This document shows, in pieces, positions 82-20,604 of a DNA stretch of 64,000 nucleotides. The DNA lies in NCBI RefSeq assembly GCF_017921895.1, contig NZ_JAFIDN010000001.1, forward strand, positions 124,001 through 188,000, read 5' to 3'. Positions within the stretch are counted from its first letter, which is position 1; each line of letters opens with the position of its first letter. This stretch comes from Natronogracilivirga saccharolytica (GTDB lineage Bacteria > Bacteroidota > Rhodothermia > Balneolales > Natronogracilivirgulaceae). A program made the translations under genes and the position numbers. The notes beneath the pieces were generated by a model. The model ran no database searches, was not told where the DNA came from, and saw nothing but the letters and a program-made list of their open reading frames with translations.

Positions 82-1179
82 TCATTTTGAAGCCAGATTG
101 CGAACCGGTTTCTCAAGTACGGTTTCACCCTCTTCAAGCCCTTCTATGACTTCGACATTGATGGCATCACTGAGACCAACCCTGATCTCTCTTTCTTCAC
201 GGCCACCCTCTCCCCGGCCCGGAACATACACCGTGGTTTTGTCGTCGTTGTAAGTCACAATCCGTTCCGGAACAGTCAGCACATCTTCTCTGTGATCAAT
301 GATCACATTGGCATTAGCCGAATAACCGGCTCGCAAATTGTATCCGCCAGGATCTGTTATCCTGATTTCCACCGGAAAGACGGTGCTGTTATCACGTTTT
401 ACCGCCTTAAGTGAAATTTTTGAAAGCTCACCTTTGACTTTGGCATCCGGAAGGGCACCGATACGGATATCTGCGGCCATGCCTTCCTCCATCTTGCCGA
501 CGTCAATTTCATCAACGGTACCTTTGAAGATCAGATCCTCCATACAGGCAAGGCTCATTAACACGGTACCGGCCTGATAGGATGTCAGAGGCACAATGGG
601 ATCCCCGATGTCAACCGATTTTTCAAGAATGAAGCCATTTGCAGGTGCTTTGATCACACTTTCGATGAGTGTTTCGCCGATCATGATGCGTCCGGATTCC
701 AGAAGTTCAAGACGCTCCCTGTTGAGCTGCAGATCGATTTCGGCATCACGTTTGCGCTGCTGGAGCTCCTGATAGTCGTGATCAGACACCATGTCTCTTT
801 CCCGGAGCTTTTCGGTGCGGAACATTTCCCGCTGAAGATTTTCCAGGGCGTTTTCCGACCGCTCAACATTTCGCTTGGCTTCGGCAAGTTCAAGCGGGGT
901 CGGATCAGGGCGAATTTCCAAAAGCGGATCACCTTCGCGGACATAATCACCGGCTTCGGCGTAAACCCTGTTCACCACACCGGAAATCTTTGATTTTATT
1001 TCGATTTCATTCCGGGGCTCAATCTGCCCGACAGCAAGGGCGTGTGATGTCAGACTGCCCTTTTCCACCTTAAGGCTGTTGTCCGGTTGTTCGTTTTTGC
1101 TGCTGTCTCCTGAGAAAACCCAGGCTGCTATTCCTGCAGCTGCGACAATGATGGCTATTGATATTAAGAAGCGTTTCAT
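82..1179 (-). CDS. Efflux transporter periplasmic adaptor subunit (HlyD/MacA-like membrane fusion protein)
   Basis: This 365-aa protein has an N-terminal membrane anchor (residues 4-22, hydrophobic, after MKRF) and the architecture of a membrane fusion protein. There is a biotinyl-lipoyl half motif (IKSKISGVVNRVYAEAGDYV, about 62-81), an alpha-helical hairpin rich in Glu/Arg (about 97-162), the second lipoyl half (VIKAPANGFILEKSV, about 176-190), a beta-barrel domain and a membrane-proximal domain. Such proteins link an inner-membrane pump (ABC MacB-like or RND) to an outer-membrane channel. A further minus-strand gene starts at position 8, consistent with an operon in which the pump follows. 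The pump type and substrate cannot be told from this sequence. Its start is ATG with no clear Shine-Dalgarno site. Confidence 0.88.
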   Translation of the reverse strand: MKRFLISIAIIVAAAGIAAWVFSGDSSKNEQPDNSLKVEKGSLTSHALAVGQIEPRNEIEIKSKISGVVNRVYAEAGDYVREGDPLLEIRPDPTPLELAEAKRNVERSENALENLQREMFRTEKLRERDMVSDHDYQELQQRKRDAEIDLQLNRERLELLESGRIMIGETLIESVIKAPANGFILEKSVDIGDPIVPLTSYQAGTVLMSLACMEDLIFKGTVDEIDVGKMEEGMAADIRIGALPDAKVKGELSKISLKAVKRDNSTVFPVEIRITDPGGYNLRAGYSANANVIIDHREDVLTVPERIVTYNDDKTTVYVPGRGEGGREEREIRVGLSDAINVEVIEGLEEGETVLEKPVRNLASK

Positions 1180-1656
1180 CTGTTTAAGATTTTAGATTCA
1201 TATGGTCAGATGTAATTCCATGACCGTTTTTAATCATGCTCATGTGTGTCCGGATTTCAGCCGGTCATGATCATTTCATGTGTTTAATTGTTTGGATTTT
1301 GTCGTCGGATGAACCGAAGGTCACGAAGTGAAGTACAATGACCGCATTCAATTTTACCCCTGCAAGTGCGGGTTCAGGTACGGTCAGAGTGTCAATCTCT
1401 TTTACCTGACATGCTATACGCCACCACGATGCAGATGGTTGCTGATTTTTTTTCCGGGAAATTTCTGCACCGGCCCCGCACTGCACATGCCCGGCAGCAT
1501 CCCTCTGTAAACAGCCCCAAAAGCCCGTTTTGAGGCGAGCACAAAATGGATAATCATTTTATTTATCAGGTAATAGGCAGAAATTGATATATTCTCTGAA
1601 TCTTCCGTCGGCCTTTTACGTAAAGCTATTAATTTCTCACCCAAACCATCCCTAAC
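1180..1656. other. Divergent intergenic region (477 bp)
   Basis: The spacer separates the minus-strand adaptor gene from the plus-strand M16 gene and must hold both promoters. Its first 170 bp are the repeat described separately. The rest (1351-1656) has no convincing ORF, tRNA or strong hairpin; I could not fix a promoter with confidence. Confidence 0.6.
1181..1350 (+). repeat. Two tandem copies of a dispersed intergenic repeat
   Basis: Two related units begin exactly 100 bp apart (TGTTTAA at 1181 and 1281). Unit 1 (1181-1237) reads TGTTTAAGATTTTAGATTCA then a short spacer and CCATGACCGTTTTTAATCAT. Unit 2 (1281-1350) has the same flanks in diverged form but carries a 23-bp core at 1310-1332 (containing CCGAAGGTCACGAAGTG) that unit 1 lacks. 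A third unit with an identical core lies at 20308-20382 in front of recA. They lie in the divergent spacer between the adaptor gene and the M16 peptidase gene. Confidence 0.6.
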
Positions 1657-20169: not shown

Positions 20170-20307
20170 AATACTGCAGGTTTCGGAATTCTGAATGTGA
20201 CTCTGAAATCCAAACAACGATTTCAATGCTGCCTATGATAATCAAAACTCATAAGCTCTGCCGGTTCGTTTTTTTGAAATATCAATAACAGGGATGATTT
20301 TTTTATA

Positions 20308-20382
20308 TGTTTAAAATTTTCGATTCATAATGTCAGGTGAACCGAAGGTCACGAAGTGAAATACCAAAACAGTCTTAATCAT
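20308..20382 (+). repeat. Third copy of the dispersed intergenic repeat
   Basis: This unit reads TGTTTAAAATTTTCGATTCA, then the 23-bp core at 20338-20360, then a segment ending in TTAATCAT; similarity to unit 1 continues through GTGTGTC at 20389-20395. The core is identical to that at 1310-1332, while the flanks match unit 1 better, which lacks the core. It lies about 290 bp upstream of the recA start. Confidence 0.6.
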
Positions 20383-20604
20383 ATGTCTGTGTGTCAGAAC
20401 TCAAGATCTGTCATGGGTATTACATGTAAGCGAACAGCTTTTGAGTCCTCGTGCAAATATGCCTGTTTGAGCTATGTTATGAAAAAAAAACGTAATGGGG
20501 ATAAAAAGAACAAAAGGGCTGTTACTTTTTTTTGATATGTGACAAAACGGATTGTAAGTTTTTGCAGTGTTGGTTATCCAATTACTAAAATGATGTCATT
20601 CGTT

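Follow-up and report, generated by a model that had tools for sequence, protein, structure and literature searches.

The 64-kb stretch of DNA analysed here (the window) contains three copies of a short repeat unit, and no units beyond these three. Two of them stand in tandem in front of a gene for an HlyD-family membrane fusion protein; the third is single and lies between recA and a 282-codon open reading frame (ORF) that appears TatD-like by its sequence, and it is not placed exactly at a start codon (Table 1). All three units and their present or absent core had been claimed in a preliminary description of this DNA and were found, unit 1 without the core and units 2 and 3 with it. The core has two matches in the window against 0.06 expected. 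The repeat as laid out there is real, but it had been read on the wrong strand, and its boundaries lie at the TTTCAT/ATGAAA junctions given in Table 1. Two features of the units, their ends exactly at start codons and their orientation with the gene, were absent from that description.

Table 1 Repeat units, cores, junctions and adjoining gene in the window
Feature	Position	Strand	Evidence
Unit 1, core-less, gene-proximal	1174..1279	-	Covariance model R1 match G000:C1:125174-125279, 91 bits
Unit 2, core-bearing, gene-distal, 5' arm degenerate	1274..1398	-	Covariance model R1 match G000:C1:125274-125398, 73 bits
Core of unit 2, TGAACCGAAGGTCACGAAGTGAA	1310..1332	+	Exact match
Gene-side junction ATGAAA, start codon of the HlyD-family gene	1174..1179	-	365-codon open frame begins here
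Internal junction ATGAAA common to units 1 and 2; its ATG opens just 2 codons	1274..1279	-	
HlyD-family membrane fusion protein gene, start codon at the end of unit 1	82..1179	-	ORF, Pfam PF13437/PF16576
Unit 3, single, core-bearing, before recA	20301..20425	-	Covariance model R1 match G000:C1:144301-144425, 115 bits
Core of unit 3	20338..20360	+	Exact match

Copy number, anatomy and fold of the unit

The 3.75-Mb genome that holds the window (G000) was searched for further units. BLAST with unit 3 found 55 places, and a structure-aware covariance model built from 45 units gave 118 matches at E<=1, of which roughly 95 are strong. The best 110 covariance matches form 75 clusters, of which 50 are single, 18 double, 4 triple and 3 quadruple, giving a total of ~95-110 units in ~75 places. 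The core was found at 33 places in the whole genome with at most three mismatches, compared with none for a reversed-pattern control, and no array lies inside a long open frame of this genome. The earlier view of a dispersed, mobile, intergenic repeat family is borne out, and chance similarity, which had been set against it for the case of three copies only and blank relatives, is dropped in view of ~100 copies in this genome and many in relatives. Units are present in 17 of the 20 genomes of the family (none in G005, G006 and G009; three matches only in G004, among the matches listed) and, again among the matches listed, in 7 of 109 genomes of other families of the order, with 1-11 matches each. 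Copy counts in the relatives are lower bounds set by the search, and most of the genomes are incomplete bins. Those core-bearing relatives that have names are metagenome bins of Balneolales, with the isolate names CSSed and DLM, presumably of soda-lake origin, as we read the CSSed names. Single good units in two genomes of other families (L310 in G094 and L106 in G026), one of them with an extended core, suggest transfer between families.

Core-less units are ~100-107 bp long, core-bearing ones 117-127 bp. Read towards the gene, a unit runs ATGAA-ATGNCCATGAC, hairpins, optional core, AAATTTTAAACAS-ATGAA. In more detail it reads ATGAA-ATGNCCATGAC(C/A)G..hairpin..ACACAGG.GTATGATTA..GTCATGG.AT, followed by the core or TA and then by CATSTGAC..TATNAATC.AAAATTTTAAACAS-ATGAA. 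ATGTCCATGACC at one end and TTTTAAACAC at the other do not form an inverted pair; the inverted repeats are internal. Neighbouring tandem units overlap in ATGAAA, with ATGAA common to both, and the alignment shows that they often belong to different subfamilies. A permuted unit, in which new units would enter beside the core, was considered and rejected because the two halves bounded by ATGAA agree in subfamily when compared by eye.

Two stems make up the predicted fold. Stem A pairs TGAAATG.CCATGA with TCATGG.CATTTCA and encloses a further hairpin that occurs in three forms (CCGGGC/GCCCGG, CAGAGC/GCTCTG and GGCGG/CCGCC), and stem B pairs TTCATSTG with CASATGAA. With this structure specified by hand on the 45-unit alignment, 79.8% of the cells are paired, compared with 30-39% when it is slid by 1-3 columns, and 13 of the 32 pairs show changes on both sides. 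None of 500 shuffles reaches the 65 double-changed cells or the covariation score of the real alignment, but by its count of double-changed pairs the alignment does not stand above the shuffles (66/500). Single units fold better than shuffled sequences (z of -2.1 to -3.3 as RNA, -4.3 as DNA). RNAalifold gave no consensus structure on the mixed-subfamily alignment, in our opinion because the subfamilies vary in loop length, and no covariance model of Rfam 15 matches the unit at the gathering or a relaxed threshold. That the fold is conserved is supported by the covarying stems. The unit-side ATG of core-bearing units lies under stem B in the predicted fold, and in the single core-less unit that was folded stem B is predicted not to form. 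A regulatory effect is possible.

The core is a separate optional module that adds two mini-hairpins. Read on the strand of the preliminary description, it takes the place of two nucleotides that otherwise separate CASATG from ATGNCC (CASATG-TA-ATG becomes CASATG-AACCGAAGGTCACGAAGTGAA-ATG), a net gain therefore of ~19 bp. This inner-arm location is found in the genus of the window and in G003. A second location at the left junction (CASATG-AACCGAAGGTCRCGAAGYGCT-ATG) holds the core in most core-bearing units of genus g9 and occurs mostly in genera other than that of the window. An extended version (CCCARTGAAACGMGTAAGCG...) is present in some relatives. CAC-GAA-GTG changes jointly to CGC-GAA-GCG, which is consistent with a mini-hairpin. 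In the window genome 37 units have the inner-arm core and 70 lack it. Among core-bearing units with a nearest neighbour at least 85% identical (core excluded), 11 of 15 neighbours are core-less; judged by such identities, core-bearing and core-less states are interleaved in sequence space. The module had been described as precisely present or absent, which these near-identical units confirm; excision as an event would go beyond what they show. An exact search for the 19-bp core across 84,980 species returned nearly only Balneolales, with four matches elsewhere (two Bathyarchaeota, one Planctomycetes and one Sandaracinaceae) that are near chance by our own estimate of roughly two expected; viral contigs gave no match.

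The position of the core within arrays is polar. In all 11 mixed arrays of the window genome the core is in the gene-distal unit or units (P=3.6e-5), a count that excludes a twelfth mixed array with a very weak second unit, and it is gene-distal in both mixed arrays seen in G003, giving 13 of 13 for the inner-arm kind. A junction-type core (GAACCGAAGGTCACGAAGTGCTAT) also lies at G000:C2:432524-432547, after a core-less array; no unit follows it before the ATG that opens a 229-codon ORF, as if the core were able to insert alone.

Precise insertion at start codons

Comparisons of orthologous sites in close relatives showed the same positions both empty and filled. At lysC the site is empty in G014 and G015 (GGATGAATCAATCA|ATGAAAGT) and filled in G019 (GGATGAATCAATCAATCA|ATGAAATGACC..array..TTTTAAACAC|ATGAAAGTATTC). 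The amine oxidase gene is empty in G015 (AAAGCAAAAGCTG|ATGAAAATTGG) and filled in G018 and G019. ispF is empty in G017 and filled in G013 and G016, where the upstream gene apparently still takes its stop from the left ATGA. For the gene queried from L226 the site is empty in G014, G015 and G018 and filled in G019; hlyD is empty in G014 and filled in G011, G012 and the window genome; and rmlA is empty in G013 and G017 and filled in several others. flgB and the L021 gene are filled in the window genome and empty in G003, fliJ is the reverse, and the gene of a TAT-type protein gives a further empty and filled pair. The empty targets have nothing in common except ATGAA. The inserts are bounded by ATGAA at both ends, which is equally readable as a 5-bp duplication of a fixed target. 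Since the same site is found empty and filled in close relatives, precise insertion at start codons is shown, and for each single event we infer whether it was a gain or a loss. The rmlA, hlyD and amine-oxidase (MKIGIIGAG) genes carry units both in the window genome and at g9 loci, with some relatives empty; unit-bearing genes common to several genera may mean that some genes are favoured and were hit more than once, or that insertions are old and were lost in places.

Of 76 arrays, 48 have as their last ATGAA the start of an ORF that is 60 codons or longer, whereas the 34 internal junctions include no such start (Fisher P=1.8e-11). Among the 48 array-terminal ORFs, 46 begin with ATGAA; among 47 long ORFs of the window 12 do, a rough background in which the first ATG of each ORF was taken. 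About one third of the arrays are away from the exact start-codon position; start codons were assigned from open frames, orthology and Pfam. Clear Pfam domains were found in 18 of the 20 array-headed proteins scanned, and their functions are unrelated: GidA/MnmG, succinyl-CoA ligase, PurQ-like amidotransferase and nucleotidyltransferases, as well as cobalamin adenosyltransferase, FlgK, class II ribonucleotide reductase, dehydrogenases and others. The left ATG of the unit runs into a stop within 1-22 codons, and translation would then begin at the unit-side ATG. Placement at start codons need not imply that start sites are recognised for what they are; an ATGAA target together with the loss of in-gene insertions would give much of it. 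One unit (G000:C16:19792-19898; L197, L313) ends ~5 nt before the start of a 440-codon ORF, which overlaps a match to an IS110-type transposase (PF01548).

Within arrays, the distal unit is less like other copies than its neighbours in 19 of 22 informative arrays (P=0.0009), a difference to which selection acting on the gene-side unit could contribute. Outside the core, identity between units that stand at unrelated genes reaches 100%. At purQ one unit is present in G003 and three in the window genome, whose distal, decayed unit occupies the position of the G003 unit; this order agrees with array growth at the gene side.

Mobilisation and alternative explanations

Taken together, the units are probably a short, non-coding mobile family that inserts at ATGAA in one orientation, replaces the start codon, grows arrays at the gene side and is moved by an enzyme acting in trans. 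A unit of ~100-126 bp, too short to encode a transposase, inserts in one orientation at the pentamer ATGAA, which reads TTCAT on the opposite strand. At a start codon, as the empty and filled sites show, the old ATGAA is left upstream and a new one stands at the gene, preceded by the A/T-rich end of the element. Insertions at start codons would survive, presumably owing to the translation start region that the element itself supplies, and insertions inside genes would be lost. Repeated insertion at the gene-side ATGAA would produce tandem arrays with older, decaying units upstream, a model we adopt because the order of divergence and the purQ arrays support it. The core polarity falls outside what this model accounts for and counts against it.

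HUH transposases of the IS200/IS605 type work on single strands; they bind hairpins close to the element's ends and place the element beside a fixed target of 4-5 bases. An enzyme of this type, recognising folded single strands and cutting at TTCAT, probably moves the unit in trans; the TTCAT target, the hairpins near both ends and the absence of inverted ends fit such a mechanism. Proteins with PF01797 (Y1/RAYT) were found in 6 of the 20 family genomes and are missing from most high-copy carriers. The sole copy in the window genome belongs to an ordinary IS200 whose neighbourhood contains no repeat, and the Y1 loci of the family (found by PF01797) showed no similarity to the unit and no repeat within the flanks examined. 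This IS200-type element (L239, G000:C14) is 98% identical over 559 bp to one in another genus (L240, G017), which looks like recent horizontal transfer. Two other candidate partners were rejected: IS110-type enzymes, which only 3 of 20 family genomes encode and several high-copy ones lack, are unlikely movers because they are missing from most carrier genomes, and reverse transcriptases (RVT_1) occur in 5 of 20 and are likewise absent from several high-copy genomes.

The main alternative to the HUH-like mechanism is a double-stranded circle integrated by a site-specific recombinase (tyrosine, serine or DEDD) with crossover at ATGAA, repeated integration building the arrays. It would explain the ATGAA at each boundary, the sharing of ATGAA within arrays and the lack of terminal inverted repeats. 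However, such recombinases usually need flanking arms, whereas the empty targets share just ATGAA, and the scarcity of IS110-type enzymes also speaks against it; we regard it as unlikely, though worth keeping in view. It is considerably less probable that the units spread without a transposase of their own, through recombination, gene conversion or reverse transcription of an RNA copy. Array lengths do vary between orthologues (purQ and rmlA) and no enzyme was found, but ATGAA alone is too little for homologous recombination and the insertions are nonetheless precise, adjacent units often come from different subfamilies, and RVT_1 is missing from high-copy genomes. The orientation with the gene, the start-codon position and the covarying structure could also be read as an immobile cis-regulatory leader or riboswitch-like element before a regulon, a reading made very improbable by presence and absence at the same gene in close relatives, near-identical units before genes of unrelated function, arrays of mixed subfamilies and the lack of an Rfam match; some genes may still have come to use the unit in regulation later. 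Least credible is the RAYT-moved REP or REPIN element proposed earlier: ~100 dispersed palindromic intergenic copies resemble one, but 14 of the 20 family genomes lack PF01797, the surroundings of the genome's own IS200 are repeat-free, no rayt gene lies between two repeats, and the unit has no GT(A/G)G head.

Relation to known elements

No report of a small element targeting start codons was found in the open-access literature, and novelty is provisional because that literature covers few subscription journals. We suggest, with slightly less than even confidence, that the units represent an undescribed class, in which machinery acting in trans targets ATGAA starts and supplies a replacement start and its region, with a removable, position-dependent mini-hairpin core. 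If this is right, a mobile element has become nearly harmless by landing on start codons and supplying the next start, and the 5' leaders of dozens of genes per carrier genome have been rewritten across a bacterial family, including those of mnmG, succinyl-CoA ligase, purQ, rmlA and class II ribonucleotide reductase. The family would then point to a mobilising enzyme still to be found. The orthologous sites offer natural before-and-after pairs for the evolution of 5' leaders and the function of translation start regions, and start-codon calls and upstream motif searches in carrier genomes need to allow for the unit.

REPs are ~20-40 bp long, have GT(A/G)G as their head and lie on both sides of a rayt gene (PMC2817692). 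REP/BIME systems with a RAYT share with the unit a high copy number of dispersed, intergenic, palindromic repeats (PMC2817692); the unit differs in its length of 100-126 bp, its headless alignment consensus, the lack of correlation with rayt and its exact start-codon placement. It also differs from MITEs, since its inverted repeats are internal and it does not combine terminal inverted repeats with a fixed-length target duplication. BOX is modular with a variable inner box, and to our knowledge BOX/RUP and RU/ERIC are not tied to start codons and are unrelated to the unit in sequence. As far as the sources describe them, BOX/RUP of pneumococcus and the enterobacterial RU/ERIC resemble the unit as small, non-autonomous intergenic repeats of 100-170 bp (PMC3049150, PMC2759123). 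TAACTGA repeats of Beggiatoaceae and some Bacteroidetes, heptamer arrays without hairpins for which a regulatory role was proposed, likewise stand before the start codons of many unrelated genes in gene orientation; no insertion at empty start codons is described for them, and the likeness is one of position only (PMC4679880).

A further close comparison is with the PATEs of Haloquadratum, whose palindromes resemble those of IS605-type transposons in the same genome (PMC3119063). Here the ends of the unit are unrelated to any IS605-type transposon found (Y1 genes located by PF01797), and start-codon placement and tandem arrays sharing ATGAA do not appear in the parts of the PATE account consulted (PMC3119063). 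Since related IS605 ends were not found, the unit is not filed as a PATE, though the two work alike. Both are too short for a transposase and non-coding, lack terminal inverted repeats and have palindromes near both ends, and strain-specific insertions and other small repeats nested inside are further common features (PMC3119063).
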